A stretch of DNA of 64,000 nucleotides, from positions 124,001-188,000 of the forward strand of contig SKCR01031799.1 in the NCBI GenBank assembly GCA_019454045.1, given 5' to 3'. The DNA is from Zanthoxylum bungeanum. Taxonomy: Eukaryota > Streptophyta > Magnoliopsida > Sapindales > Rutaceae. The notes beneath the pieces were generated by a model. The model worked only from the letters and a program-made list of their open reading frames with translations. It was not told where the DNA came from and did not search any database. The translations under genes were made by a program, and so were the position numbers. Position 1 is the stretch's first letter. Every line of letters starts with the position of its first letter. Positions 5,262 to 60,516 of the stretch are shown one piece after another.

Positions 5262-7286
5262 TGTTGGGTTTCTAGTTAGTCCCAAGATCAATTCAAGCAA
5301 GAAACATGTGCGAATACAACAATGAAATATGGCGGAATCATACTTACATTGATCGGTATGCGATGCGATGAACACAAAAATCCTTGGCTCTTCCTTGGAA
5401 GCTCATGGTAGTGGGCTGCTCTTTGTGCTCTCCAAATATCGGTCAACACCTCCATGGATTCTCCAAGCTCTAAGATTGGTGTTGGTGATTCCATGCTCAT
5501 AAGTTGGTTTCCCTATCACCTTATGATGACCCTTCATATGCTAGCATTGGAAAATTTGCCACAAATCTTCCATCTTTCTTCTTGATAAGCCGAGAGAGGG
5601 AGAAGAGAAAAGAAAAGGGTTCCAAACCGTGTAAGAGGGAGAGAGAAGAGGGAAAAGAAAAAATGTGTTAAGTGTTTTGGTTTATTTGATTTCAAAAAAC
5701 AAATACCAAAATCAATTACCACTTTTCCAAAATTCAAAATTTTGGTAAAAGACTTTAAGTCTTCAACCACCCCCATCATTCACTCAAAAGTGACTAGTTG
5801 TCACATCACTCAAAGTGACTAGACATCACATCAATCAAAGTGACTAATGATTTGACGCTTGATGTGACTTGTGGGCCACACTTAAATTCGCAATGCGAAT
5901 GCGCCTGCAAACACTCCCGGGCTCGGGTTCGCTAATTCCGAATTTACGAATTTTCCGTTGCGACTTAATTAAATCAAATTCAATTAAATAATTTTGCCTA
6001 GCAAAATTACTATTCACGTCGCTAGCGAATTAATTCTAAATTCACTCGTTCGCCCGAATTAAAATCTAATTTTAATTCCGCGTCGAAATCAAATTTCGTA
6101 TAATATATCGAATATATTATTTTATTGATTAATTCCAAATTAATCGTTCTCTCTCTTTAAATAATATTTTATCCCAGATAAAATATCTCCGTAATTAATC
6201 CCAGATTAATTTTCTCTCTCTTACAATTAATCCCAGATTAATAAAGTGCGAGTCATACGTCATCGGTGAATCTTCGGGAAGCGATCCATGAGATCCCCGG
6301 ATATGTTGGCAGTAAATCCGGTTGTCGGACTATCCGAACACGTGCGTACCTAGTACTACGTTTTTACCGATTTACAAGACATGGTTTGCTTCTAGCACAG
6401 CACCGTGCCTACCCAATTCTCCAGAAATATTCTTTTAAGGAATATATAATCTTTGTCAGGCGTAGTATACGTAATATTGCGTATTACGATCCAGTATCGA
6501 TATCACATTCTAGGCCTAGGGCTGGAATTGTGTCTGCCTCGTACGAAGCATATATCAGATCTCTGGTAACTAGTTTCTATAATCGGATAATCATGACCTA
6601 GTCATATTATCCCGATGACTGCAGTACATAAGAGTACCAGTTCCGTATCCTACGTGATCATCATCTCCATATGACTGGAGTGATACTTCCATCTTGACAT
6701 CACACCCAATACACTACGATTCTCAATATACCCAGAAGAGGCGTACACAGAACGTGTTAAAGCCCTGGACGACCAAAACCAAAGTATATTGATTGTCGTA
6801 AGTATTAGCGGTGCAAGTATCCGGTTAAGACCAAATACACCTACCCTGATTCGGACTTCCATAGACACATAGTCATACTACCAATGGAATTCCGAGGGGT
6901 CTATCCAGAGCGAAGATGTTCCCGTACCATCGGTAAACACAACCTCCTATTACAATTGCATGAGTATCATATACCCAAATATATGAGAACTATGTCGTTA
7001 TACTCCCACAACGCGCACAAGGGTAATACTAGTCTTTTACGCATTATCAATGTCCAATCTCGATAATACTCTCACTAGGGATATTTAATGATTAAACCTT
7101 CGTGGATTGATACTGTCTCATATCATCTCAATCCGGAACTAATCATAAGGACCTTATATCATTTATACATCTTGGTAATATAATTACAAATGATAAAAGG
7201 GTAATTTCCTTTGTCACATAGTTAATTTGTACAACAACACCATGATCTGTACAAATAGTGATGCTATGGGTCATAATTGTCCAACA
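5262..7286 (-). mobile_element. Solo LTR of the C1/C2 copia family, antisense, inside the C1 LTR
   Basis: On the - strand it starts TGTTGGACAATTATGACCC (7286 downward) and ends with CTAGAAACCCAACA at 5262. It is flanked by CTTTG on both sides. The length of 2025 bp is close to the 2112 bp LTR of C2. No internal sequence is left, so it is a recombination product of a full element that had inserted into an LTR of its own family. Its palindrome ladder lies at about 5935-6243. The open frames 6266-6601, 6650-6868 and 6884-7066 are LTR sequence with no domain. Confidence 0.9.
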
Positions 7287-40815: not shown

Positions 40816-43800
40816 TGATAAGTGCATGAAAATGTACTTTGAACATCGCTAATTCGACTTGATTATCAAGTATTTAATCTTAATTGTAGTTTATTTTAAT
40901 GTTTTATTATTAGGAAGCAATAGAACATGAAGATTGGAGCAATTGTACATGTTTTGGGACCTAACAGATGCATTGGAAGCATACGGGAAGAGTGAAAATA
41001 TGAAATTCAAAGCACCAGAAAAAGTAGCAAGCACCGCGACACCCTCTTTCTGGCGTCGCGGCGCCCTTCGGCAAACATCCCCATATATGAAGGCCGTAAG
41101 TTGGGCACCGTAACACCACTTTCCGGCACCGCGGTGCCCCAATAAAGTTCCAGAAACTTAATTCAGACGTGTTTCACACACATAAGGACTCCATGACTAT
41201 TGGACAGTTATGACCCATAGCGTCACTATTTGTACAGATCATGGTGTTGTTGTACAAATTAACTATGTGACAAGGAGATTGCGCTCTTATCATTTGTGAT
41301 TAGATCACCTAGATGTATAAATGATAGGAGGTCCTATGATTAGTTCCTGGATTGAGATGATATGAGACAGTATCAGTCCTCGAAGGATTAATCATTAAAT
41401 ATCCCTAGTCGTAGTATTATCGAGACTGAACATTGATAATACGGAATAGACTAGTATTGCACTTGTGCGCGTTGTGGGAGCACAACGGCATAGTTCTCAT
41501 ATATTTAAGTATTGGATACTTATGCAAGTGTGATAGGAGGTTGTGTTTACCGATGGTGCGGAAACAGCTTCACTCTGGATAGACCCATCGGAATTCCATT
41601 GGTAGTATGACTATGTGTCTATGGAAGTCCGATATCAGGGTATGTGTATTTGGTCTTAACTTGAGACTTGCATCGCTAATACTTGCGACAATCGGTATGC
41701 TTTAGTTTTGGTCGTCCAGGGCTTTAACCGGTTCTGTGTACACCTCTGCTGGGTATATTGAGAATCGTAGTATTTTGGGTGTGATATCAAGACGGAAGTA
41801 TCACTTCAGTCATAGTGGAGATGATGTCACGTAGGATACGGTACTAGTGCTCTTAAGTACTGCAGTCATCGGGATATTATGACTAGGTCATGTATATCCG
41901 ATAATAGAGACTAGTTACCAGGCATCCGACATGTGCTTCGTACGGGGCAGACATAGTTCCAGCCCCAGGCCTAGCACGTGACATTCGATACTGGATCGCA
42001 ATACGCAATACTACGTATACTACGCCTGCCATAGATTATATATTCCAGTAAGAATATTTCTGGAGAATTGGGTAGGCACGGTGCTTTGCTAGAAGCCAAC
42101 CATGTCTTGTAAATCAGTAAGCACGTGGTACGAGGTACGCACGTATTCGGATAATCCGATGATCGTATTTACTGCCAACATATCCAGGGATCTCTTGGGT
42201 CGCTTCCCAAAGATTCACTGATGACAGTTGATTCGAATTAGAATTAATCTGGGATTAATTAAGAGAGAGAATTAATCTAGGATTAATTAAGAGAGAGAAA
42301 ATTAATCTAGGATTAATTGAGGTATTATTTAATCTGGGATTAAATGTGTTCGGAATAGAGAGAACGCGATTAATTTGGAATTAATCGGTAGAATAAATTT
42401 AATAGTTAAATTTTATTTTTCTATTTAATTTATTCGTATGGGCTAAAATTAATATATCGGATATATTAATATGAATTGGATTTCGTTACGAAATTAAAGT
42501 CGGACTTTAATACGAATGAACGAATTAATTTAGAATTAATTCGTAAACGACGTTCGTAATATATTTGTGAGACATCGTTATTTAATTAAATTAGATTTAA
42601 TTATTTAGCGACGAGAATTCGTTTAATCGGATTAAACGGATCCGAGCCACATCAAATGTTCGTAGAGACATTTGAATTTTGAATTCAAATGTGGGGCCCA
42701 CTTTAAATGTGGTAGTTGGGAGAGTGGTTGGCATTTATGCCATACCATCCACTTTCCAACCACCTTGGAATGGTTTTGGCAAAACCATTTACCCAACCAC
42801 CTTGTTTAGGTGAAAAAGGTAAATTGGCTTTTACCAAAACTCTTCTCTCTCTCTCATTTGTGTATGCTTCACACAAAATACACTTGGAACTAAATGGAAA
42901 CCCTAATATCCTCCAAAATGGGCGTGAATATGGTATCCCTCCTCTCTTTGATTTTGTGGCAAAATCAAGTTAGCTAGCACTTCAAGGAATCAACAAAGGT
43001 GATAGGGAAACAACTCAAAGCTTGGAATCAACATTGAAGGTTGGATCTTGGAGATCACTTCTCACAACTCAAAGCTTGAAATCAACAAAGGAAGCATCTT
43101 GGAGATCTTCTTCTCAAAAATTTTAAAAGCTCAAATACATTCAATGTAAGTAATTTGGCAACTTATTTTGAATTTATGAACATGTTTTCATGCTTATTAG
43201 ATCCTTGGCATGTTCTAGGAACACTAACAAGGACTTCCCTATATAAACCCAAGCTCGTCCAAACCCTAGAAAATGAGAAGAAATACACAATAAAAAGTTG
43301 AAATCACATATTTGAGATAGAAGAATGAAGAAGCTACAAGCCAGACAGGATGTCTCTCCGATCTATCCAGGTTGTATCTCTTTCTTCTATGGAGAACTAA
43401 TCTCCTAGGCAAAGCTAAGGATGAACTCTTGTAATTAAGTTCTTATATTCTTTTTTTTTATTCCTAAATACTCTTCAACGTTTAATATAATTTATGAATC
43501 TTTTGATTATCAATCCATAGATTGTGTTTTACCAATTTGCATATATGAATAGTCATGTTTCTTCTGTGTGTGATTGGGGAACCCAGATGTGACTAGTAAT
43601 GTTGTTTTATGAGTTGATGTTCTACTGCAGTATTGTCTGAGGGTATATTGTCGACGTTAGATAGGTCATAACGATAACATTGTGTGTTGTTAACATAGAG
43701 AAAATAATTCATCGATTACCTTAGAATTTAATATGTTTTAAATTGAAATATATTCTGATTGTTGGTTTGGGATGTGAAACCTTCAATTGAGTAATAAAAT

Positions 43801-45654: not shown

Positions 45655-47510
45655 GATGTGTAGACAACAAAAATTTGCCTCCTTTGAAGTTTCTCCAAGC
45701 TCTCTTTTGATTGTATGTTGAGCTCCAAGCTTGATGAATGAATTCCAAACTCTTGGGATTGGTTTCCCTATCACCTTGGATGACTCTTTGATGTGCTAGC
45801 AATGGAGATTTTTGCAACAAAAATCCCCTTGTACATGATACAACTCTCGGCAATTGGAGAGTAAAAGAGAGAGAGAGAGATGGTCACGCCCAAGTGAGAG
45901 AGAAGAGAGTGATGAAAAGTGTGAAGTGTTTTTGATTTTCCCAAAATAAAATGTCATATACCAAATCTCAAGTTGGTAAATGTCACTCACCTTTTCAAAA
46001 TAAAATAAGGAAGTGTAAACAACAAGTCATCACCAACTACTAACTTCCATTAACATAAAGTGATGAGAATGACATGTGATGTGACTTGATGTGGGCCCCA
46101 CTTTGATTCAAAATCCGAGTGGGCCCGCAAACACATTCCGGGCTCGAATTCGTTAATTCATAAGTAACGAATTTTCTGTTGCGACGTAATTAAATCAAAT
46201 TTAATTAAATAATTATGCCTAGCAAAATTACTATTAAAGTCGCTGGTGAATTAATTCTAAATTAATTCGTTCGCCCGAATTAAAATCCAATTTTAATTCC
46301 GTTATGAAATCTAATTTCATTTATATATCGAATATATTATTTTATCGATTAATTCTAAATTAATCGTTCTCTCTCTATATTCGAATTTTATCTCAGATAA
46401 ATTTTTGCCTTAATTAATCCCAGATTAATTTTCTCTCTCTAATAATTAATCCCAGATTAATTCTGTTCGAGTCATACGTCATCGGTGAATCTTTGGGAAG
46501 CGACCCATGAGATCCATGGATATGTTGGCAGTAAATCCGGTCGTCGGACTATCCGAACACGTGCGTACCTCGTACCACGTTCTTACCGATTTACAAGACA
46601 TGGTTGGCTTCTAGCAAAGCGTCGTGCCTACCCAATTCTCCAGAAATATTCTTTTAAGGAATATATAATCTTTGTCAGGCGTAGTATACGTAATATTGCG
46701 TATTACGATCCAGTATCGATATCACATTCTAGGCCTATGGCTGGAATTGTGTCTGCCTCGTACGAAGCATATATCGGATCTCTGGTAACTAGTTTCTATA
46801 ATCGATAATCATGACCTAGTCATATATCCCGATGACTGCAGTACATAAGAGTACCAGTTCCGTATCCTACGTGATCATCATCTCCATATGACTGGAGTGA
46901 TACTTCCATCTTGACATCACACCCAATACACTACGATTCTCAGTATACCCAGAAGAGGCGTACACAGAACCTGTTAAAGCCCCGGATGAGCAAAACCAAA
47001 GTTTACTGATTTTCGCAAGTATTAGCGATGCAAGTCTCAGGTTAAGACCAAATACACCTACCCTGATTCGGATTCCCATAGACACATAGCCATACTACCA
47101 ATGGGATTCCGAGGGGTCTATCAAGAGCGAAGCTATTTCCGTACCATCGGCAAACAGAACCTCCTATTACACTTGCATGAGTATCCAATACCCAAATATA
47201 TGAGAACTATGCCGTTACGCTTCCATAACACGCACAAGTGTAATACTAGTCTATTCCGCATTATCGATGTCCAGTCTCGATAATACTACGACTATGGATA
47301 TTTAATGATTAAAACATTACATGGATTAATATTGTCTCATATCTTATTAATCTGGTACTAATCATATGGTCTTTTATCATTTATATATCTCGGTAATATC
47401 CAATTACAAATGATAAAAGAGCAATTTCATTTGTTTGTCACATAGTTTATTTGTACAACAACACCATGTTCTGTACAAATAGTGATGCTATGGGTCATAA
47501 TTGTCCAACA
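45655..47510 (-). mobile_element. Partial LTR of the C1/C2 copia family
   Basis: On the - strand it starts TGTTGGACAATTATGACCC at 47510. It follows the LTR to about 45655, lacking the last ~150-200 bp. The palindrome ladder is at about 46148-46462. Just outside, CCAGTCTTCATAG is duplicated (45618 and 45637), perhaps marking the break. Confidence 0.8.
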
Positions 47511-49090
47511 TGGAATTGCCTCCAAAGGTCATTGATGTGTTTTTGGCAGTACCGAACCGCCGATTCAGTTCGAGAACCGACGATTCTCGGATCAATTTTT
47601 AATGGAATCGGAAGATAATCAAATTTTTTAGGTTTCGGTTGATCTGGTTCATAATCAAACTGTGACCGGGCCTAAATCGGTAAAATCGGCTAACGTGATA
47701 AATAATTTTAACTAATTAAGTATTATAAAATAAAATATTTATACTTATGAAAACACTAATGATGAACGATCTGATTAATATCTCACTAAAACTATATAAT
47801 CCAATTGATCAACATATATAATTTCTATTAATTTTGTTTATATTATTCAATATACTTGCAATTGTTTATGTTTTTTTTAAATGCTTGCGCGTTTTCTTTC
47901 TTCGAGATTTGACACCTATAAAATCGAGATCTGGTAAATGACTTTTAATAGATCGTTTTATTTGTAAAAAATTCTGATACGGCATCGGAATCAGCTCGAA
48001 CATATAGGGTATCTCATGTGCTCTGATTTCTATGTAAAAGATTATGGCAAAAGCATTTTTGTCCGAAATTCCGCACGACATCATTTTTAATTTAGCTTAG
48101 TTAGATATCATCAATTTGAATAAAATTTTTGGACATTGTGGCACTGGAACACCCTATCCGAGGCAAGATGTTATGGTACGAAACAAAAATAATTCATCTC
48201 CCTGAATCTCAATTCTAAGGAAAAATGAACATGACAAACCCTAAAAATCGGACAACTTAAAACATTATCCAGTGTCAAAACGATCTGTAATAAATATCAG
48301 ATATACAAAAAGGACATCTGGTCCCAATCCAAGAGATCAATTCTCAACATCAATACTCAAGGTTTCGTACCCCCAATTACTTGTACAAATCAAAACTTTT
48401 ATTTACATACATAAAACAACGTGTATTGCACGATTCAAAACATACTAACATAACTCTTAGGCTCCTACGACCTCTCCCAAGACTTTAGAGTGGTTGATTG
48501 CAGTTTGGGTGATCCGTCGCCTCGAACATGACTTCCCAAAAGCTTATGTGGTTGACCGATCTGGTTTTCAACCTGCAAAACTATCAAACTGTTGTGGTGT
48601 TAGTTATAAAACTCAGTAAGTTACCACACTCATACTATATAAGGAAAAAATAAATCTTGAAAATAGTACACATATCTAACATTTATGCGTATATGGTTAT
48701 CTATCAGAAAACCTTTAAACTTCATTCAATTTCTTACGCTCTCTAAATATACAGTTGTCTGGAAATACTTACATAAACCGATCCACACATTCAAATTACA
48801 TATACATATTTAGAAACGCACCTTGTGCAGATTTTCTGATTTTCTTCATAACAATCGTACCATAACCAACAAAAACAAACCAAACAATGATATACCAATA
48901 CACACACACACACATATGTCAAAGACTAACGAGAGAACAACCCAAGAATACTTCCACTAACCGTATATCGATACGATCAAATGAAGCTTGTATGACACTC
49001 ATTATCTATTTTAGAATAGGTACAATATGAATTCCTTACGAACAGATTTCATAACCAAAACTATCAACATACGATCTAAATCACCAACCA
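47511..49090. other. No gene recognised between a copia LTR and Athila A
   Basis: AT-rich. Near 47545-47720 there is a run rich in CGGTT/GAACCGA motifs. 48400-49000 resembles a decayed LTR or leader with no coding frame. The Athila A coding homology begins near 49095, with unrelated DNA to its left. Confidence 0.45.
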
Positions 49091-49094
49091 AACT

Positions 49095-50484
49095 GATGGC
49101 AAGGCTCGAGAATGAAGAAACAGCTGGCAAAGAACTGACAATCAAAAACACATTTCCAGATGAACAGTTGTTTGCCATTAAACAACAGGAAGTCCCTTGG
49201 TATGCTGACTATGTCAACTATATAGTATCAGGAAAACGGCCGTTGGAATGGACAACTCAGCAACGAAAGAAGTTCTTCAAAGAAGTCAAGCACTATGTCT
49301 GGGATGAGCCGTACCTGTTCAAACGATGTGCTGATCAATTACCGAGACGGTGTATTCCACATGAGGAGGTCAATAGTGTCTTGCAACACTGTCATTCATC
49401 ACCATATGGCGGACACTTCAATGGAAACAAAACTGCAGCCAAAGTCCTACAATCAGGTTTGTTCTGGCCCACTCTTTTTAAAGATGCTTATCTATTCGCT
49501 CTTTAATATGACAGGTGCCAGAGAACGGGAAATATTTCCATAAGAAATGAATGACCTTTGCAAAACATTCTGGAAGTGGAGATATTTGATGTATGGGGTA
49601 TTGATTTTATGGGACCATTTGTTCCATCATTCGGAAACCTGTACATACTGGATACAGTAGACTACGTCTCCAAATGGGTTGAAGCGATTGCACTATCGTC
49701 CAATGATTCAAAAGTGGTGATCAAATTCCTTAAAAATAATATTTTCACTCGCTTCGGGACACCTCGGGCGATTATCAGTGATGGTGGCTCACAATTCTGC
49801 AACAAATACTTCGATGTACTCCTATCCAAATACGGAGTTACTCATAAGGTTGCCACTGCCTATCATCCACAGTCAAATGGACAGGTGGAAGTTTCAAACA
49901 GGAAGATCAAACAAATCTTGGAAAGAACCGTTTGATCAACAAGGAATGACTGGTCTAAAAAACTAGATGACGCATTATGGGCTTACCGGACAGCTTACAA
50001 GACACCTATTGGTATGTCCCCATATCAAATGGTGTATGGAAAAGCGTGCCATCTGCCAGTTGAGCTTGAACATAAGGTGTACTGGGCACTGAAGAAGTTG
50101 AATCTTGATCCACAAGCTGCAGGAGAGAAAAGACTTCACCAACTCAACGAATTGGAGGAATTTTGCCTACAGACTTATGAAAATGTGAAACTGTACAAAG
50201 AAAAGACCAAGAGATGGCATAATAAAAAAATAGTGCGCAGACAATTGGAGCCAGGACAACAGGTGTTATTATACGATTCACAGCTGAAACTGTTTCCTAG
50301 AAAACTGAAATCAAAGTGGTCAGGTCCATTTGTGATTACTCAGGTGTTACCATACGGAGTTGTTGAGATATACAACCCCAAGTCCAACAACACATTCAAA
50401 GTTAATAGCCATCGTGTCAAGCACTATTGGGGAGAATCATTTGAGCGACAAAAAGAAAGTGTCACACTTTCAGATCCAGCATAA
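49095..50484 (+). pseudogene. Athila-type integrase with three in-frame stops
   Basis: A single frame holds the whole domain: the end of RNase H and linker (NTFPDEQLFAIKQQEVPWYAD), the HHCC zinc finger (H...H at SVLQHCHSSPYGGHF, CxxC partly lost), and the catalytic residues Asp 49603-49605 (WGIDFMGP), Asp 49780-49782 (IISDGGSQF) and Glu 49888-49890 (GQVEVSNRK). The C-terminal [20 protein letters not shown] segment follows. Stops are TAA 49504, TGA 49552 and TGA 49933. Reading resumes in the same frame after each, so decay is by point change only and therefore fairly recent. Confidence 0.9.
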
Positions 50485-50595: not shown

Positions 50596-50680
50596 TTTTT
50601 AAAGGTGAAGTCATTTCAAGATGGAATAAGCTCTCGCAAATATTCACAATCAATTTCTTTCTCTCCCTCAAAATTCTCTG

Positions 50681-51169
50681 ATGAAAGTCTACAAAACTCG
50701 CTTGGAACGGATGAGACTCCTGATGATAAAAGGTATTCCTAATGACATTCGTTGGGTAATCGAAGCACGGGTCCGATTAGCAGGTGAGTATTCTGATTCT
50801 TATAATTCTTATTTGCCTGGTTTTGGAAGAAGCACATATGCAAAGAAACGTAGAACTAAGCAAATGGGTGTTTGTTACAAATGTGCATGCTGGAATTGCA
50901 ATGCTCGTTGTTGTTCTTTAGGAATGGTTTTTGATAATTGCGAAGATAAAATTAAATTCATTAGGGATGGCTTGAGTAAAGAGTTTTTAGATGATATATC
51001 TTCGACTCTTGAGACGCATCCCAATGAATATGTTCATATAGCCATCCGCAAATTACATACACAATTCCAAAAAGAAATACAACAGTTAAGTCTCGGGAAT
51101 CTGACTCAAAAAGACCATGTTTGCCAATTTATAAGAAAATTGGATGGGAAACTTTCCCCTGACGCATAG
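50681..51169 (+). CDS. Cys-rich ORF of unknown function in Athila A
   Basis: 162 codons, open, ATG at 50681. The N-terminus is basic (VYKTRLERMRLLMIKGIP). A Lys/Arg-rich stretch AKKRRTKQ (about residues 54-61) comes directly before a Cys cluster, CYKCACWNCNARCC (about 65-78). The rest is acidic and hydrophilic (SSTLETHPNEYVHIAIRKLH). A basic run beside clustered Cys is compatible with nucleic acid or metal binding. I do not recognise a family: it is not a CCHC knuckle, and it lacks a signal peptide or membrane segment, so it is not env-like. Lying between integrase and the LOG-like ORF, it may be a former accessory gene of this lineage. No stop disrupts it, unlike its neighbours. Confidence 0.5.
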   Translation: MKVYKTRLERMRLLMIKGIPNDIRWVIEARVRLAGEYSDSYNSYLPGFGRSTYAKKRRTKQMGVCYKCACWNCNARCCSLGMVFDNCEDKIKFIRDGLSKEFLDDISSTLETHPNEYVHIAIRKLHTQFQKEIQQLSLGNLTQKDHVCQFIRKLDGKLSPDA

Positions 51170-51344: not shown

Positions 51345-51375
51345 ATTATTTTTACTCACCCTTTTCAGGTGTTAT
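51345..51375 (+). promoter_or_regulatory. Possible 3' splice site before the LOG-like ORF
   Basis: TTTTTACTCACCCTTTTCAG ends about 50 bp before ATG 51421 and is followed by GTGTTAT. A second candidate, TTCGGCAG followed by GTACTAG, lies about 40 bp upstream. Confidence 0.4.
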
Positions 51376-51420: not shown

Positions 51421-52066
51421 ATGGAAGCCACTTCAAGAAGACGATTTGAAAACATCTGTGTGTTTTACGGTACTACTGTTGGTGCTAAACCACAATACGT
51501 AGCAGCAGCACAGGAATTGGATCAAGTCTTAGCTGCAAGGAATATGCACTTAGTATATGGCTCTGGGAATCTTGGACTAATAGGGATCATTTCAAAAGCT
51601 GTACAGGAAGGAGGCAGTCAAGTATTGGGAATCATTCCAAAACCATTGGCGGAGGCGAATCTTATTGGACCATCAAACGGAGAGGAACTAATTGTGCCAG
51701 GTATGTTTGAATGACTGATAGAAATGGTTAACCGTGCTGATGATTTTATTGCTTTGCTATGTGGCTTGGGCACAATGGAGGAAATTTTTATCTTGGGAAA
51801 ACCTGAACATACACCAGAAATCGCTTGGACTGTACAATGTTGATAAATTTTATGATTTTCTTTGTGTGTTTCTTGATGATGCCCGGAGAAATGGGTTCGT
51901 GTCAAAACCTATAAAAGAACTCATCTTCACTGCCAGAACTGCCCCAGATTTAATTGACCAAATCTTAGCCTTTGAACCACAAATTGACCCTATCATTTCA
52001 AAGATAAATTGGTCCGAGAACGATCGTGGTAAGAGGCGTCGGATTAATCTAGATCTTAACCTTTAA
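51421..52066 (+). pseudogene. Captured LOG-family gene with C-terminal EAR motif (broken)
   Basis: Intronless, ~215 codons, the usual LOG length. LOG enzymes cut cytokinin riboside 5'-monophosphates to active cytokinin bases (PF03641/TIGR00730). Seen: ICVFYGTT (residues 12-19; family ICVFCGS), LVYGSGNLGLIG (44-55; family LVYGGGxxGLMG), LGIIPKPL (69-76), then DDFIALLCGLGTMEE (51748-51792), where the family has the PGGxGTxxE catalytic motif, degenerate here. TGA 51712-51714 sits where the family has a conserved active-site Arg, consistent with CGA to TGA. A frameshift near 51786-51795 moves the rest to the next frame: LNIHQKSLGLYNVDKFYDF, TARTAPDLIDQI. The end reads KRRR (52031-52042) then LDLNL and TAA, an EAR-type repressor motif that known LOG enzymes do not carry, as far as I recall. 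Confidence 0.85.
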
Positions 52067-52149
52067 CTTTTCATTTAGATATAGAATTTCAGCTAACCAG
52101 GTACTATCTTCTAAACTCTTCTTCTACTATCTTAGACATTGGAGACAAT

Positions 52150-52176
52150 GTCTCATTTAGGTTTGGGGGAGGGGAT
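52150..52176 (+). other. Internal polypurine-like tract of Athila A
   Basis: GACAATGTCTCATTT followed by AGGTTTGGGGGAGGGGA. This resembles the conserved GGACAATG...GTTTGGGGG stretch found after the coding region of Athila elements. It may be a second plus-strand primer. Confidence 0.6.
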
Positions 52177-52619
52177 TAGTTGACTAGTATTTTTTTTTAT
52201 TTTGTATGATGTTTTTATTTTTATTCCAAAATTTTACAAAAAATACAAAAAAAATTGAAAAATTTTACAAAAAATCAAAAAAATAATTAGTTTTTTTGTG
52301 ATTTTAATTTGATTAATCAGGTGAAATTGGTGCGAAATAGCTGTGTTAGGAATTGCCACTCTTGAGACGTATCTCAACTTATTTCGGAACAAGTTAATTT
52401 TTATTTATTTCTTTTTGAATTATTTAATTTGTGAATTCTCCATAAAACTGACTAAAATGGATCTTCATATGCTCAGTTGACAAGTATTATCAACATGCAT
52501 GGTAACATACGGACATGAGAAGTAATTGATGAGTTTGTAATATTCAGTGCTATAGTTTAATTGGAGGAAGCATCTAAAAAAAGCGATGGGATAAAAAAAT
52601 GTGAAAACAAACGTCTGAG

Positions 52620-52850
52620 TTCCGAGTTATTAAGTCTGTAAGGGTGTCTTAACACCTAGTGCCCTAAAGCCAACTAGTTTGGGAGTCACTGGCCCAAAGC
52701 TCGTTACATGGATCGAAGATGTTGCCAAAAAAAATATATATCTGAAGTCTGAGTAATTAAGTCTGTAGGGGTGTCTTAACACCTAGTGCCCTAAAGCTAA
52801 TTGGTTTGGGAGTCACTGACCCAAAACTCGCTACATAGATGGAAGATATT
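52620..52850 (+). repeat. Direct duplication in the Athila A 3' region
   Basis: GGGTGTCTTAACACCTAGTG plus the following ~70 bp occurs at about 52645 and 52768. The same duplication exists in Athila B (58300-58080, - strand), so it predates both copies. Confidence 0.75.
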
Positions 52851-52914
52851 GTATATAAATAAATAAAAAAAAATCAATCAAAAATCAAGAAAAAAAATCA
52901 AAAAAATTATTCAA

Positions 52915-53139
52915 TTGCTTAAAAAAGGTGTGAAATCTGATATAACTTTAGGACAAAAATATTACTCTCTTTTCAACTGCACTTGTGAGTATTATAAGCA
53001 AAATGAGTTGATTAATATTTTGTTGGCTGTGTATATGGAGAATGGTAAAAATAATCGAAGAATTTACTTATTCGGTAATTTAGAAAGAAACAAAACAATT
53101 ATTGACTTAGATAAGAAGTTTCACCCGTTTAGTCACTAA
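52915..53139 (+). CDS. Small ORF (74 codons) in the Athila 3' region
   Basis: Open frame containing CEYYKQNELINILLAVYMEN then NNRRIYLFGNLERNKT. Athila B has the same stretch on the - strand (about 58030-57810), reading KNELINILLV, NGKNNRRIYLFSNLE, with a frame change before it. Amino acid-level similarity in two diverged copies makes a once-coding sequence plausible. No domain recognised; no signal peptide. Confidence 0.35.
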   Translation: MLKKGVKSDITLGQKYYSLFNCTCEYYKQNELINILLAVYMENGKNNRRIYLFGNLERNKTIIDLDKKFHPFSH

Positions 53140-53400
53140 CTTTTTTATTCTCTTTTCTCTTGTCTTTTTGCTTTTGTGTGCATTAGTTTTACTATCTTTT
53201 TACTTTTATAAGACGTTTGTGGGTATCGTCGCTGTAAACCCTCACGAGACTACAACTCGTCCACTAGGGACACCTAGGGGTTTAAAGGCTTGTTGCATAC
53301 GCTAAATGCAACCGTGATCCCTACGAAAGTGGCTTAGTTTAATTTTAATTGTTTCTTGTATTTTATTTTTTTGTTTTGCTCGAGGACTAGCAAAATGTTA

Positions 53401-53410
53401 GGTTTGGGGG
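53401..53410 (+). other. Polypurine tract of Athila A
   Basis: GGTTTGGGGG after CTCGAGGACTAGCAAAATGTT, directly before the LTR. The same context occurs in B (57521-57545, - strand). Confidence 0.85.
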
Positions 53411-53412
53411 TG

Positions 53413-55512
53413 TGATGAGCGAAAAATATATCAATATTTACCGCCCCTTTTACTTAATATTTTGTTTAGTTTCTCGGGTTTGATGAACGTTTTGATATGT
53501 TTTAGTTTATTTTGCATATGAAATAATATTGGGACTCAATGGAATCATTTAGGATGAAATATGGGTCAAATAAGGGCAAACATTGGACTTGACATATTAA
53601 TTTTGGAGATTGGAAACTTGAAAGGGCGTTCTAACGAATTGCAGTTTCGGAAATTCCAATTTTGCGCAACTGTCGTATTTTGGGCATAAATTTTTACTTC
53701 GATATGGGATTGATCTGATTCAAGTTCAAGATTAAAGAAGACTCAAAGATTTACAACTTTTAAGAACAAAATAATTTCAAATTCTGTATATTTCATGACC
53801 TAAATTGATCAAACATCCGGAAGTGTGTTATGTGTAATTATTAAAGTCATTTTCAAAGCAAAAAAATAAATAATAAAAATAGTCAAGCTACCACCAAACA
53901 TGACAGAAATTAATAATGGATTTGGTGGAGCAATTAGTGGAGCATTTAGTGGATTTGGTGGAGGCAAAATTTTACCTATAAATACCAAGCCATTTCATTT
54001 GTAAATTCATACTTTCTTATTTGAAATAACTTAATAATAACTAAGAAGATTGTATCTTGTTTGTTTATTTACAGCTTTCAGTAATTAATTTCCGCTTTGG
54101 CACTTTCTTTTCTTGACTTTTCAGTTTTTACTTTCCGCAATTTACTTTTACGCACAGTCATTTTCTTTCTTTACTTTTTCAGTTTTCACTTTTCAAGCAA
54201 TGAGGAGGTAACTCCCCCTTGCTATGGTAAAAGGTAAAGCTTTTATTATTGCTATTTAGATTAATCTCCTCTAATTATAATATAATAACTATTTAAAATC
54301 TGACTTAACGAGGATACCGCCATATTGGTCGGTTGGTAATTAATTATAAATTGGTTTTAACCTGACTAAGCATGGATACCGCCTGATTGGTCGGTTGGTA
54401 ATTAATTATTAATTTGACTTAATCAAGATACCGCATATATGGCTGGTTGGTAATTATCACGCAAAGTTAATATATTATATTAAGGGAGATATCTAAAATA
54501 GTAGTAATAAAAGTGGATCATTTTACCTCAGCATATTCTTTATTGTACTTTTACTTTATTTACTTCAATAATTTACTTTTCACCAATTTACTTTTACTTT
54601 ATTTACTTTCAACAATTTACTTTTCAGCAATTTAATTTTCAGCAATTTACTTTCAGCAATTTACTTTTCAGCAATTTACTTTCCAGTAATTTACTTTTCA
54701 GCAATTTACATTCCAGTAATTTAATTTCCAGCATTTACTTTATGTATTTTCTTTTATTTAAGTTTCTACTACCCGTAAATATGTGTCGTAACTAAGCCAG
54801 TTATCAGGGGTTGTGATGAAATCCAATATCACCGGTTTATAAGGGGCTAAATTACAGTTTGGGTAATATAAAGGTTTATTTATTGAGCCTTAATCCTAAT
54901 ACTTTTTATTAACTGGCTATTAATAAAATTGAATTGGTAAACTTAAAATGAACTTTGAAAAGAGAATTTAGGTTAAATACCCTAAACTCAATAGCTCACG
55001 ATCTTCCTTGAGGATAGATAACCCTTAATAGATTTCCTTACAGGATAGGAATATACCTGTCGGGCGGGGGTAACCATAATTGGAACTTAATCTTAATGAA
55101 TCCAGATAACTTGGTTAACATAGGAATATGATTAATTGGGTATACTGGGTATTTGTATTTGACCATCGGAAGAGGCTTTTACATAATTTCGTGTTCCAGG
55201 TTAATAAACCAATATATTACAAAAATGTAAAATAAACACTTCATCTTTTAAAAAAAAGATATTGGAGGGATTCACAACCTTAGATAGTTTTATAAATTTG
55301 AATTTTCTTCAATCTACTTTCAAGCAATTTATTTACATGTTTCAATTTTAAAGTCACCACCCAATCAAACAATCAATCTATTAGATACTTGTAAATATTT
55401 AACTTCATAAATTGATAACAAAAGGTTTTAAGTCTTCGTGGGATCGATACTTTTTATACTACTTGAATGATACGTGCGCTTGCGTTATACGCGTGTGATT
55501 ACACACTTGTCA
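53413..55512 (+). repeat. 3' LTR of Athila A (2100 bp)
   Basis: Starts TGATGAGCG and ends ACACACTTGTCA. The TGAT start agrees with the solo LTR 22814-24511, whose ends are fixed by a target duplication. Contains GATACCGCC/GGTCGGTTGG repeats (54310-54450) between inverted arms (54262-54290 and 54467-54490), and an array of CAATTTACTTTTCAG-like units (54560-54740). Confidence 0.85.
54560..54740 (+). repeat. Short tandem repeat AGCAATTTACTTTTC in the Athila A LTR
   Basis: About nine units of 17-19 bp (AGCAATTTACTTTTC or AGTAATTTACATTCC variants). Not seen in this length in LTR B. Confidence 0.8.
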
Positions 55513-56132
55513 GAATGATTGCTTTTGGTTGGTTGAATGTGGATTTGCTAAATAAATAAAATAAAGACACAAAAGAAAATACTAAAAAAATAACAAAATA
55601 CACAAAATAGATAGGGTTGTGACTCCACATAATATTATTCAAAAGATGAATTGATTCTCTTATATATGTGTAATAAATTAATTTGCTAAACTGGAACACG
55701 AAGTTATGCAAAAGCCTCTGTCGATGGTCAGATGCAAATACCTTGTGTAACTCAATTAATCATATTCCTATTTTAACCAAGTTGTCTGAATTCATTAAGT
55801 TCAAGTTCCAATTATGGCTACCCACGCCCGACAGGTATATGTGTATCCTGTAAGGAAATCTATTAAATAGGTTATTTATCCTCAAGGAAGATCGTGAGTT
55901 ATTGAATCTAAGGCTAAAACCTAAAATCCTTTTTTTTTAATTTCATTTTAAGTTTGCCACATCAATCTTTTTGGTGATCAGGCAACAAGAAGCATTAAGC
56001 TTAAGACTCAATAAACAAACCAATGATTTACCTAATATATAATTAAATCAATTATTAAGTATGTGAATATTGTGTTTCGTCACTTCCCTAGAATAAAAAT
56101 AAAATGATGGGGGTTAGGGGATCCACTTTTAG

Positions 56133-56632
56133 AAATCTCACTTTATTATAATATGGAAATTGTTATTGTTACCCATTTAAGTTGAACCAGCCATAAAGAC
56201 GGTGTTATTATTTATCCATAAACCAGCCATATAGGCGGTAATCATCTGTCACCTAAAGACCGACCTATAAGCGGTGTCACATTATGTTACATAATTAAAA
56301 CCAGCCATTAAGGCGGAATCAACTTTTAATCCATATTATTAAATTACAATTTCCATATTATAATTAAAGTGAGATTAATATACCTTTACTATTTCTAATT
56401 TAGAAATCTCCCTTATTATAATATATAAATCTGCGTGATAATTACCAACCAGCCATATAGGCGGTATCCTGATTAAGTCAAATTTATAATTAATTACCAA
56501 CCGACCAATATGGCGGTATCCAATTTAGTCAGGTTAAAACCAATTTATAAATAATTACCAATCGGCCAATATAGTGGTATCCTCATTAAGTCAGATTTTA
56601 ACTAGTTTATATATTATAATTAAGGGAGATTA
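56133..56632 (-). repeat. Two hairpin-capable modules with tandem repeats in LTR B
   Basis: Module 1: arms 56133-56162 and 56347-56377 (AATCTCACTTTATTATAAT against its complement) enclosing four CCAGCCATA(A/T)AGGCGG-like units. Module 2: arms 56404-56430 and 56608-56632 (AATCTCCCTTATTATAAT against its complement) enclosing three units. The solo LTR and LTR A have one such module each. Confidence 0.7.
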
Positions 56633-56894
56633 ATCTAAATTATAAAAGTAAAAGCTTCACTCTTCCCCAGCAGTAAATTAATTACTGACACATAAAAGAA
56701 AAGAAAATAAAATAAAATAAAATAAAATTTATTGCAGAAAGTAAAAGTGCATAATTAAAAGTACTAAAAGTAAAGATGCTTAATTTAAATTACAAAAACT
56801 TAAAACACAACAAGATGCAATCCTTAAAGTCCTTACAAAACCCAAGGAAGGCAAGATTTGAATTCTGAAATCGAGCTGAATTTATAGGCCTCGG

Positions 56895-57335
56895 TAAACT
56901 TGGCGCGTCGCGACGCGACGCGATAACTTTTACGCTTCGCGACGTGACAACTTTTGCGCGTCGCGACAAGAGTAGATCATCGACACATGGTGGATTGGCT
57001 TCGCGAGATCGTGACACGTGTCATGCTTTCATCGGCAACTGAATTATTACTGTCGGCAGCATATGATGCCGACACGTATCCCGGAACACGTTAGCATGAT
57101 TCACTGAGATGTTGACACGTGTCAGGTGAATTTTAGCATCGATGATGATTGTCGACAGCATGTGATTATGACACGTGTTCGGCGCATGTTAGCATGACAC
57201 ATTTTAGCAAACGGCGTACGTTAGCACGTCGTATTTTAGCAAACCACTCAGAATGTGACACGTTTCCTGGCGTATTTTAGCAGACGGCGCACGTTAGCGG
57301 TCGCGACACAGAAGGCTTGCGCGTCGCGATGGGTG
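56895..57335 (-). repeat. GC-rich cluster of TCGCGACGCG and ACACGT motifs in LTR B
   Basis: TCGCGACG occurs at least four times, with further CGCGAC and GACACGTG(T) motifs, in otherwise AT-rich DNA. The solo LTR has a comparable cluster at 24070-24330; LTR A lacks it. Confidence 0.65.
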
Positions 57336-58404
57336 AAATTACAATTTTGCCCTTCTATATGTTTTTCACTATTTTGGCTCCAAATTGCTTCCAGAGAGTC
57401 CTGAAACTTTATTTATCTACAAAATAACACAAACACACATCAAAATATTCACAAAAATCAAGAAACTATACATAATATTAGGTCAAATGAGTGGGAAATA
57501 GTGACATTTACCACTCATCACAACCCCAAACCTAACATTTTGCTAGTCCTCGAGCAAAACAACAACATAAAATAACATAAACATCTTTAAAATAAATTTT
57601 AACTAAGCCACTTTCGCAGGGATCACGGTTGCATTTAGCATATGCAACAAGCCTTTAAACCCCTAGGTGTCCCTAGTGGATGAGTTGTAGTCTCGTGAGG
57701 GCTTACAGCAACGATACCCACAAACATTTTACAAAAGTAAAAAGATAGTAAAACTAATGCACACAAAAATAAAAAGACAAGAGAAAATAGAATAAAGAAG
57801 TTATTGACTAACCAAATGAAACTTCTTATTCAAGTTAAGAGTTGTTTTCTTTGTTTCTAAATTACTGAATAAGTAAATTCTCCGATTATTTTTACCATTC
57901 TTCATATACACACACACCAACAAAATATTAATCAACTCATTTTTGCCCACAATAGTCTCAAGTGTAGTTGAAAAGAAGGTAATATTTTCATCCTAAAGTT
58001 ATATCAGATTCACACATTTTTTAAGCAATGGAATATTTTTCTGATTTTTTTTATTTTTATTTATTTATTTATATACAATAACTTCCATCCATGTAGCGAG
58101 TTTGGGTCAGTGGCTCCCAACCAGTTGGCTTTAGGGCACTAGGTGTATGACACCCCTACGGACTTAATTACTCGGATTTCCGATATAACATATATTTTTT
58201 ATAACATCTTTTTGATCCATGTAGCGATCTTTTTTGGGCCAGTGACTTCCCAAACCAGTTGGCTTTAGGGCACTAGTGTTAAACACCCCTAACGGACTAA
58301 CTCGATCTCAAATGTTTTTTTTTATCCCATCGTTTCTTAGATGCTCCTCCAATAAACTAGAGCACTGATATTACAAATCTATTCAATTACTACTCTGTCC
58401 ATAT

Positions 58405-60516
58405 TGTTGGACATTATGACCCATAGCGTCACTATTTGCACAGATCATTGTGTTGTTGTAGCAAATTAACTATGTGACAAAGAAATTGCACTCTCATCAT
58501 TTGTGATTAGATCACCATAGATATATAAATGAAGAGAGGTCCCTATGATTAGTTCCTGGATTGAGATGATATGAGACAGTATCAGTCCACGAAGGATTAA
58601 TCATTAAATATCCCTAGCCGTAGTATTATCGAGACTGGACATCGATAATGCGGAATAGGCTAGTATTGCACTTGTGCGCGTTGTGAGGGCACAACGGCAT
58701 AGTTCTCATATATATAAGTATTGGATACTTGTGCAAGTGCGATAGGAGGTCGTGTTTCACTCGATGGTACGGGAAACAGCTTCGCTCTGGATAGACCCTT
58801 CGGAATCCCATTGGTATTATGACTATGTGTCTATGGGAGGCCGAAATCAAGGTAGGTGTGTATAGTCTTAACCTGAGACTTACATCGCTAATACTTACGA
58901 TAATCGATAAACTTTGGTTTTGGTGGTAGGGGACTTTTAACAGGTTCTGAGTACACCACTTCTGGGTTTATCAGAGAGTCGTAGAGTATTGGATGTGATG
59001 TCAAGACGGAAGTGTCACTTCAGTCATATTGGAGTTGATGTCACGCAGGATACGGTACTAGTTGCTCTTGAGTGTTGCGCAACCAATCGGGATATTGTGA
59101 CCAGGTCATGTATATCCGATTATAGAGACTATGTTACCAGACATCCGATATGTGCTTCGGACGGGGTAGACACTTATCCAGCCCCAGCCCTAGCACGTGA
59201 TTATCCGATACTGGACCGATATGCACAATACAATTGTATACTACGCTTGATACAGATCTTAATATTCTTATGAGAATATGTCCGGAGAATTGGGAAGACT
59301 TGGTGCTTTGCTAGGAGTCGACCTTGTCTCGTAAATCGGTAGAACGTAGTACTTGGTACGTACGTGATTCGGATACACCGACGACCGTATTTACTGCCAA
59401 CATATCCGGGGATCTCATGGGTCGCTTCCCAAAGATTCACCGATGACGTATGACTCGCACTTATATTAATCTGGGATTAATATGATGAGAGAGAGAATTA
59501 ATCTGGGATTAATTTCGGAGACATTTTATCTAGGATAAAATATCAATTGAAGAGAGAGAAACATTGATTTGGAATTAATCGAGGAATTAATATATTTGAT
59601 ATATTAAACGAAATTAGATTTCGACGCGGAATAAAATTAGATTTTAATTCGGGCGAGCGAATTAATTTAGAATTAATTCGTTAGCGACGTGAATAATAAT
59701 TCCGCTAGGCGCAATTATTTAATTCTCGTCGCGACGGAAATTAGTTAATTCGGAATTAGCGAATTTGGGCCCGAAAGTGTTTGCGGACACATTCGTATTT
59801 TGAAACGGGTGGAATCCGCAAATCACATCGCGATATCTCATTACTTGACACGAATAGATGATGGATGTATCTAGTCACCTTTAAGGGATGATACATTGTC
59901 TCTACTCTCAATGTGAGGTAATGATGGCAAATGATGTATTTTTCCTTGGAGGAAAACCTTTCACGGAAAATGAAGGGTTTTTAATTAAAAAAAAATTCAT
60001 TTTGTATTTGATACATTTTGGCTTTTCATTTGGCCACTGACTCACGTTTTTGTTAAAAAACAAAAACACAAGAAGTGATAAACACTCTCTCCTCTTCTTC
60101 TTCTCCCCTCTCTCACGACATTTTCTGGTTTTGCAAAGGCAGTGAACTGCCGAACAAGATAAAAGAAAATGGAGGGAAGCAAGTGTGTTTTGTGGCAAAA
60201 CAAGAGTGCTAGCACACTCCGGGTTCAATGCGAAGGTGATAAGGGAAGTATACCCATGAGCAAGGAACGTTTTGATGAAGCTTGGAGCTCGTTTTTCTTG
60301 ATCAAAATGGAGCAAAACAGAAGCACAAAACCGAATCTGCAGCAGTGGGCGCACTTGACAGTGAACTGCCGTGAGCAGTGGCAGTGGGCAGTGAGTTCGT
60401 TTTTTGTGCCAAATCGCATCTCAACCGCTCGATGTAAGTATTCCGCACTTAAATCGTTGTATTCGCTTATGATTCATGCTTGAGTTTTGATCTTGGGACC
60501 TCTAGAAACTCCTACA
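58405..60516 (+). repeat. 5' LTR of C2 (2112 bp)
   Basis: Starts TGTTGGACATTATGACCC and ends AACTCCTACA. The only uninterrupted sense-strand 5' LTR of this family here with a primer site. The palindrome ladder is at 59465-59770, with some arms intact and others (for example near 59562-59580) no longer symmetric. The open frames 59908-60354 and 60169-60483 lie in LTR sequence and are not supported as genes. Confidence 0.9.

Follow-up and report, generated by a model that had tools for sequence, protein, structure and literature searches.

The open reading frame (ORF) at positions 51421 to 52066 on the plus strand of the window, the stretch of 64,000 nucleotides of Zanthoxylum bungeanum analysed here, is almost certainly a LOG-derived accessory gene of an Athila-like retrotransposon that has been kept under selection. 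Gene content, copy number, selection on shared variants, clade membership among the sampled sequences, conservation of a C-terminal tail and of the catalytic residues, and loss of pocket residues were computed for this ORF, its copies and its relatives, and are described in turn below.

The LOG-like gene and its element

The LOG-like ORF is 217 codons long in open copies. The copy in the window is decayed: one premature stop and a frameshift interrupt it, and its phosphate loop carries a private change. It translates as MEATSRRRFENICVFYGT...VYGSGNLGLIGI...GIIPKPLAEANL...VPGMFE and a stop, the second half after the frameshift leading to the C-terminus GKRRRINLDLNL and a further stop. Both pieces are recognised by Pfam; the first matches PF18306 (E 2.7e-6, 27.5 bits against a cutoff of 26.3) and the second PF03641 (E 1.9e-7, 31.8 bits against a cutoff of 27). 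L022, an open copy from another place in this genome, matches PF03641 with an E value of 7.3e-37 and scores 174 bits against a cutoff of 96 for TIGR00730, which places it in the LOG (type-I) family. The combination of PGGxGTxxE with Arg99 and Glu122 (CgLOG numbering) is present in most relatives and is broken in the window copy by the sequence LCGLGT, the stop and the frameshift. At the two altered positions of the phosphate loop, Pro and Gly are each found in 55 of the 59 genome copies aligned, the window copy included, and many of these copies retain PGGLGT(L/M)EE, so LCGLGT is private decay of this one copy.

The first-pass annotation, made from the letters alone, had described an intronless LOG region between integrase and 3' LTR, and this arrangement is confirmed by translation, by Pfam and by the flanking integrase and LTR, all on the plus strand. 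The integrase region at 49015 to 50484 has broken frames and consists of a zinc-binding domain (PF17921, E 1.5e-6), a core (PF00665, E 1.5e-17, matched at 49555 to 49935) and a C-terminal part. Downstream of the LOG-like ORF lies a spacer at 52067 to 53412 with no recognised gene, which contains a 127-bp tandem repeat in two copies (52604 to 52857) and, on reading of the sequence, ends in the purine-rich tract AGGTTTGGGGGTG. The 3' LTR follows at 53413 to 55512 (TGATGAG...TGTCA, about 2.1 kb) and is homologous to the LTR pairs of copies L033/L034 and L037/L038. Alignment of the window copy to copies fetched at greater length starts only at about 49102 or later, which indicates that its 5' part is gone.

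The LTR pairs of two of these long-fetched copies differ by K2P distances of 0.028 and 0.024. Copy b is bordered on both sides by a 5-bp target duplication, GATAT, and its primer site, TGGCGCCGTTGCCGGGGA, is complementary to tRNA-Asp at the 3' end of the latter. A string matching this site is present at 101 places in the genome, and three of six loci checked have it inside a tRNA-Asp(GTC) gene. Athila elements use a tRNA-Asp primer, and the present element combines this primer site with LTRs, gag, RT and IN domains and an extra ORF in sense orientation 3' of IN. In the portion of PMC6317226 consulted, tRNA-Asp is one of several primers of non-chromoviruses and is thus not specific to Athila. 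The element is termed Athila-like by its gene content, the position of the extra ORF and the primer site, rather than by an RT tree with reference elements.

Other repeats are found in the same part of the window. Beyond the 3' LTR the element occurs a second time, as a partial, inverted copy at about 55.6 to 58.4 kb, and a palindrome of about 5.9 kb extends from 52507 to 58404, with outer arms at 52507 to 53554 and 57379 to 58404 as well as inner arms. Another repeat of about 1.4 to 1.5 kb occurs four times in both orientations (41200 to 42700, 46090 to 47510, 58405 to 59890 and 5860 to 7286), its copies probably being the LTRs of a different element family.

Copy family in the genome

The genome searched comprises 3.956 Gb in 51,709 contigs. 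A PF03641 search produced 47,331 first-look candidates, of which the best 150 were scored. In all 150 the match spans at least 130 of the 131 positions, and 147 have no internal stop, a proportion that holds for top scorers and is not the share of open copies in the genome. The first 22 bases of the LOG ORF occur exactly 16,701 times (8,375 + 8,326), the reversed control 0 times. This string is carried by 40 of 59 sampled copies, giving roughly 25,000 copies in the genome (16,701 / (40/59)), a rough figure drawn from non-random samples. The proposal of a LOG gene inside an Athila-like element of a large family is upheld by these counts, and a nested host LOG retrogene confined to a single locus, which the first-pass annotation had set against its own reading, is ruled out by the genome-wide PF03641 matches and the 22-mer count.

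Two sets of copies were drawn for comparison. Copies L001 to L030 are the best PF03641 scorers, a set biased towards open frames that includes three near-identical pairs, and L039 to L068 were chosen by the non-coding flank nearest to that of the window copy, the window itself being L039. The LOG frame is fully open in 3 of the 30 copies chosen by flank and in 18 of the 30 chosen by Pfam score, and gene order is constant in the flank-sampled copies.

Relatives and the element clade

Of 8,000 candidates scored in a protein search with the LOG ORF, 7,822 proved to be relatives. Among the best 120 are named proteins of Populus, Paulownia fortunei, Reevesia, Diplodiscus and Xanthoceras as well as many from unnamed short contigs, up to 87% identical; most of the relatives aligned are 50-66% identical to the query. 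No LOG relatives were found in viral contigs. A tree was built without the tail columns from 31 thinned element-like rows (<82% identity), copy L010 and 18 hand-picked host LOGs. The host set comes from the best 120 matches of an AtLOG3/AtLOG8 query, from which other host LOG groups may be missing. Rooted on a single long bacterial branch, the tree places the element-like proteins in one clade with support of 99/95, apart from the 18 host LOGs (99/94). Within it, 30 of the 32 element-like rows form an inner clade (100/99) that holds all tailed proteins and a few with altered ends.

Clusters at 90% identity reach 81 members for LOG and 566 for the upstream gene described below, numbers that may partly reflect several assemblies. 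The clade, these large clusters and the published LTR consensus sequences with a LOG domain (PMC9289625, consulted in part) suggest that the LOG proteins of other species are likewise placed in elements, the comparison having been made on their proteins rather than on the surrounding DNA.

Three Populus proteins named LOGL10 in databases (P0040, P0057 and P0092) end in the element-type tail. P0040 is 56% identical to the query and has neither Lys100 nor Glu125; it was left out of the tree because it is at least 82% identical to a row that was kept. To judge by their sequences, these proteins seem to come from retrotransposons and to have been annotated as host LOGs. Two Xanthoceras proteins, P0009 and P0019 (359 and 336 aa as predicted), have in common a non-LOG C-terminal end, GITLHSNIQSLRS, and are perhaps LOG copies joined to another exon.

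Active site, pocket and fold

In the part of PMC4979012 consulted, Arg99 and Glu122 are proposed as the catalytic pair of LOG, with Met96, Lys100 and Glu121 around the adenine and a prenyl pocket formed by Met96, His97, Lys100, Glu125 and Trp129, of which Glu125 and Trp129 come from the neighbouring subunit. These residues were compared in proteins of 200-260 aa from the best 120 listed of each kind, which gave 101 element-like and 114 host sequences. Every one of them is kept in all 114 host LOGs. In the 101 relatives Glu122 (100), Trp129 (100), Glu121 (98), Arg99 (92) and Met96 (87) are largely retained, whereas His97 is kept in 26 and Lys100 and Glu125 in seven each. The copies of this genome also keep Glu122 (59/59) and Arg99 (54/59), and across the element clade the phosphate-loop glycines and Glu122 are nearly invariant. 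A degenerate catalytic PGGxGT, put forward in the first-pass annotation beyond the obvious stop and frameshift, is therefore a feature of the window copy, and as a family trait it is ruled out by the residue counts across copies and relatives.

The structure model of open copy L010 is matched by Foldseek to 2a33 and 1ydh with a TM of 0.94 by target length. In sequence, the element LOG scores 118 for the NCBI equivalog NF058542, below the cutoff of 300. With the pocket residues replaced and the core kept, the protein is assigned to the LOG family and is not filed as a cytokinin-activating LOG. The earlier suggestion that an enzyme had been changed into a nuclear factor is overstated, as the catalytic residues are mostly kept and the altered part is the proposed prenyl pocket.

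A working cytokinin-activating LOG, by which the element would raise free cytokinin, keep cells dividing and so favour its own copying in meristems, would fit the LOG fold, the purifying selection described below and the general retention of the phosphate loop, Glu121, Trp129 and the proposed catalytic pair of Arg99 and Glu122 (PMC4979012, in the part consulted). This is nonetheless an unlikely account, since Lys100 is replaced in 94 of 101 relatives, Glu125 in 94 and His97 in 75, while the hosts keep all three in 114 of 114. Slightly less probable again is a LOG core that serves merely as a stable dimer scaffold displaying two tails with nuclear localisation and EAR signals, a repressor without enzyme activity. 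The conserved tail, the lost pocket residues and the replacement of Arg99 by Gln in 8 of 101 relatives would agree with such a scaffold, but it has no need of the phosphate-loop glycines and Glu122 that stay near-invariant at 50-66% identity, and the tail that it would exist to display is without visible constraint within this genome.

Lys100 and Glu125 never change singly: 94 of the 101 relatives have lost both and seven have kept both. This joint loss beside retained catalytic residues constitutes a natural experiment on the substrate choice of LOG. One of the seven, P0037, retains both residues and has the tail. The other six have no tail, and the two of them included in the tree (P0034 and P0080) branch at its unresolved base. 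Together these proteins suggest an order of events in which capture was followed by gain of the tail and then by the change of the pocket. Four of the eight relatives with Gln at position 99 end in IDLNR, and some lineages may, from their sequences, have lost both catalysis and tail.

The C-terminal tail

An LxLxL motif lies within the last 12 residues of 90 of the 120 relatives listed and of none of the 120 host LOGs listed. In the thinned set, a tail combining basic residues with LxLxL near the C-terminus is present in 25 of 31 rows as compared with 0 of 18 host rows and an expectation of 2.8% by shuffling; 30 of the 31 have at least a basic pair among their last 16 residues. Chance and inheritance from the sampled host LOGs are ruled out as origins of the tail by these shuffles and by the absence of tailed host rows. 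The first-pass annotation had also allowed that no other copy might keep both the LOG fold and a C-terminal LxLxL, and the relatives show otherwise. In the structure model the tail is disordered, with pLDDT below 50 at residues 204-217.

Conservation of the basic cluster and LxLxL thus holds across relatives from several plants, but within this genome no constraint on the tail is visible, with N:S counts for shared variants of 6:1 in the flank-chosen copies and 7:5 in all copies, both small numbers. One subclade ends in IDLNR or IDMNL instead of LxLxL. LxLxL is a short motif with other possible readers, and the tail might be kept as a degron, as a packaging or export signal, or for another partner unrelated to TOPLESS. 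The ambiguity of short motifs and the altered ends of that subclade speak for such a role, which we regard as improbable to the same degree as the scaffold: LDLNL, LDLTL and LNLTL beside a basic cluster have the textbook EAR form, and they are kept over deep divergence.

The upstream NABP-like gene

A second conserved ORF, overlooked in the first-pass annotation, lies between integrase and LOG at 50621 to 51169 on the plus strand and encodes a cysteine-rich basic protein of about 182 aa that resembles NABP/CRP, a group of nucleic-acid-binding proteins of viruses. In the window this ORF is decayed: its third codon is a stop, the splice-acceptor-like sequence that precedes it is degraded, and its PF05515 score of 20.6 bits does not reach the cutoff of 23. 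Both of the two open copies examined exceed this value, with 26.8 and 29.9 bits. The match spans approximately residues 33-120 of 182. At E <= 0.01, 26 of 30 aligned members (two of them from this genome) match PF05515 (Viral_NABP) and 27 match PF01623 (Carla_C4), and a basic arm and four cysteines are present in nearly all. Relatives of the protein number 394, and the 120 listed include named proteins of Populus, Acer, Xanthoceras, Rhamnella and Orobanche. The structure model is poor (pLDDT 57), a search of the alignment against PDB gave one match with an E value of 0.45 and nothing useful, and a search against viral contigs found no relative.

The NABP-like gene may be wider-spread than LOG. 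At locus L075 (DAIEQH010000041.1) an integrase ORF with 51-61% identity to the one in copy b is directly followed by a NABP-like gene, and no LOG was found on this contig in the 983 bases after that gene. The record is filed as a Candidatus Nomurabacteria MAG yet carries plant Athila-type genes, an apparent contamination of a bacterial record. In three copies (L002, L003 and L007) an acidic ORF (FDFYYSDSDEDEADLFVP...) precedes LOG in place of the NABP-like ORF; no Pfam match over cutoff was found for it in L003, the one scanned. LOG may have moved between element types in this way.

Acceptor-like sequences stand before both start codons. For LOG, the exact string CCTTTTCAGG, at 51360 to 51369 on the plus strand of the window, is found in 41 of 60 copies including that of the window, and for the NABP-like gene a looser pattern is found in 40 of 46. 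These putative splice acceptors would fit the production of spliced subgenomic RNAs.

Selection on the LOG ORF

Selection was assessed from N:S ratios in 30 loci of 40 listed places, which were selected on the non-coding sequence that separates the two ORFs and not on LOG. After one locus with too little LOG (L052) was dropped and near-identical rows were removed, 27 LOG, 25 NABP-like and 21 integrase copies remained. LOG singletons number 139 N : 45 S, a ratio of 3.09 against a neutral expectation of 2.98, while variants common to at least three of the 27 copies number 68 N : 60 S, a ratio of 1.13 (Fisher p 5e-5 against the singletons). The odds ratio drops with higher sharing (0.37, 0.28 and then 0.22 at six or more copies), and the effect persists in transversions alone (p 0.026). 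Wrong-frame controls go from 2.15 in singletons to 2.02 in shared variants and from 2.04 to 3.64, and the integrase control falls from 75:21 to 17:34 (3.57 to 0.50). For the NABP-like gene the signal is weaker, with N:S falling from 3.06 to 1.35 (p 0.016) and no effect in transversions alone (p 0.75). When 54 LOG copies are pooled the right frame falls from 2.75 to 1.10 (p 4e-6); a drop also appears in one of the wrong frames (3.02 to 1.90, p 0.033), far smaller than that of the right one. Five stop-making variants are common to at least three of the 27 copies, which indicates that the shared class also includes post-insertion or recurrent changes.

Shared LOG variants are thus under purifying selection, as the check among element copies suggested by the first-pass annotation had left to be seen. 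Their N:S far below that of singletons indicates that the lineages that spread kept the LOG protein, whereas single copies decay neutrally after insertion. A passenger without selection is ruled out by the N:S tests, including those at higher sharing and on transversions alone. A host retrogene merely amplified with the element and useless to it, which the 3 fully open LOG frames in 30 flank-chosen copies would allow, is very improbable given neutral singletons beside shared variants far below neutral and a single clade of proteins sampled from several eudicots.

Proposed function

The accessory gene kept by selection can be placed in a tentative scheme. An intronless LOG copy would have entered the 3' region of the element, probably once and deep in eudicot history. 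Host LOG genes of plants normally contain introns, and because the element ORF is uninterrupted, capture from a spliced mRNA, as proposed in the first-pass annotation, appears plausible. The element LOG would then have gained the basic cluster and LxLxL tail, and its prenyl pocket would afterwards have been stripped of charged residues while the phosphoribohydrolase core was retained. It would probably be translated from a spliced subgenomic RNA, as would the cysteine-rich NABP-like gene before it, and its likely product would be a nuclear dimer of LOG fold that hydrolyses a nucleotide 5'-monophosphate other than the classical cytokinin precursors, with the disordered tail recruiting TOPLESS-type corepressors. 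During expression of the element, LOG and the NABP-like protein together might weaken silencing or defence by the host.

For the whole chain, that is, a kept accessory gene encoding a nuclear LOG-fold hydrolase of changed substrate whose tail recruits TOPLESS and which acts with the NABP-like protein, we would put the chances at about even, judging from sequence. A broader version is speculative and on balance doubtful. It would hold that an ancient lineage of eudicot retrotransposons carries a two-gene anti-host module, made of a zinc-finger protein like the silencing suppressors of the carlavirus type and a LOG turned into a nuclear enzyme that hydrolyses nucleotides with a new specificity (for example for a signalling or defence nucleotide in place of a cytokinin precursor) and is tethered to TOPLESS complexes.

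Relation to known systems

The presence of LOG in LTR elements is known in print, though briefly. Steinbauerova et al. (2011, Genetica) reportedly described two Athila-like elements similar to LOGL4. In the part of PMC9289625 consulted, which cites Steinbauerova et al. for the LOG domain in LTR elements, a YgdH (LOG) domain is listed in LTR consensus sequences of Citrus sinensis and C. clementina and, with a filter off, of Populus trichocarpa. The capture itself is accordingly not new. For LOG genes of retrotransposons, the literature searched, mostly titles and the starts of abstracts from lists that were in several cases cut short, yielded nothing on tail, pocket or selection, nor did it yield any retrotransposon with an NABP-like gene. 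The portions consulted of PMC7264820, PMC11963269 and the review PMC13317346 contain neither LOG nor cytokinin as a term, and in those of PMC10606437, PMC11670757 and PMC8087826 every mention of LOG or PF03641 refers to an ordinary gene or family.

In plant LTR elements, extra ORFs usually have no known domain (PMC9289625, consulted in part). Two adjoining extra genes with recognisable domains, signs of selection and predictions at the level of residues open the role of such ORFs to ordinary assays. Surveys of the LOG gene family may moreover count retrotransposon genes, as the Populus LOGL10 proteins illustrate.

Among known systems, the NABP (CRP) of carlaviruses, allexiviruses and mandariviruses (PF05515/PF01623) resembles the upstream gene in profile match, basic arm and four cysteines. 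The element gene differs in being encoded by a retrotransposon and in matching only partially (about residues 33-120 of 182), and silencing suppression is known for the viral members; in the part of PMC12172455 consulted, members of the viral family suppress RNA silencing and one is a transcription factor that causes hyperplasia. AtLOG3 (2a33) and AtLOG8 (1ydh), to which the element LOG is 49-50% and 43-44% identical in the structural matches, have in common with it the fold, the phosphate loop, the catalytic Arg and Glu and Trp129, whereas the element protein has replaced prenyl-pocket residues, a tail resembling a nuclear localisation signal with LxLxL, and an uninterrupted ORF within an element. 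Ty3/Gypsy elements of orchids carry an ORF for AlkB, an m6A demethylase with activity shown in vitro (PMC9289625, in the part consulted), and are likewise a retrotransposon lineage that keeps a host-type enzyme gene, although the enzyme and the lineage are different and the LOG is known from its sequence only. A further likeness is to the LOG ORFs of Citrus and Populus LTR elements in the same source, which also place a LOG domain in a plant LTR retrotransposon, the Populus protein P0040 having the same type of tail; the portion of that report consulted gives the presence of the domain only, to which the tail, the pocket, the selection, the copy number and the partner gene are added here.
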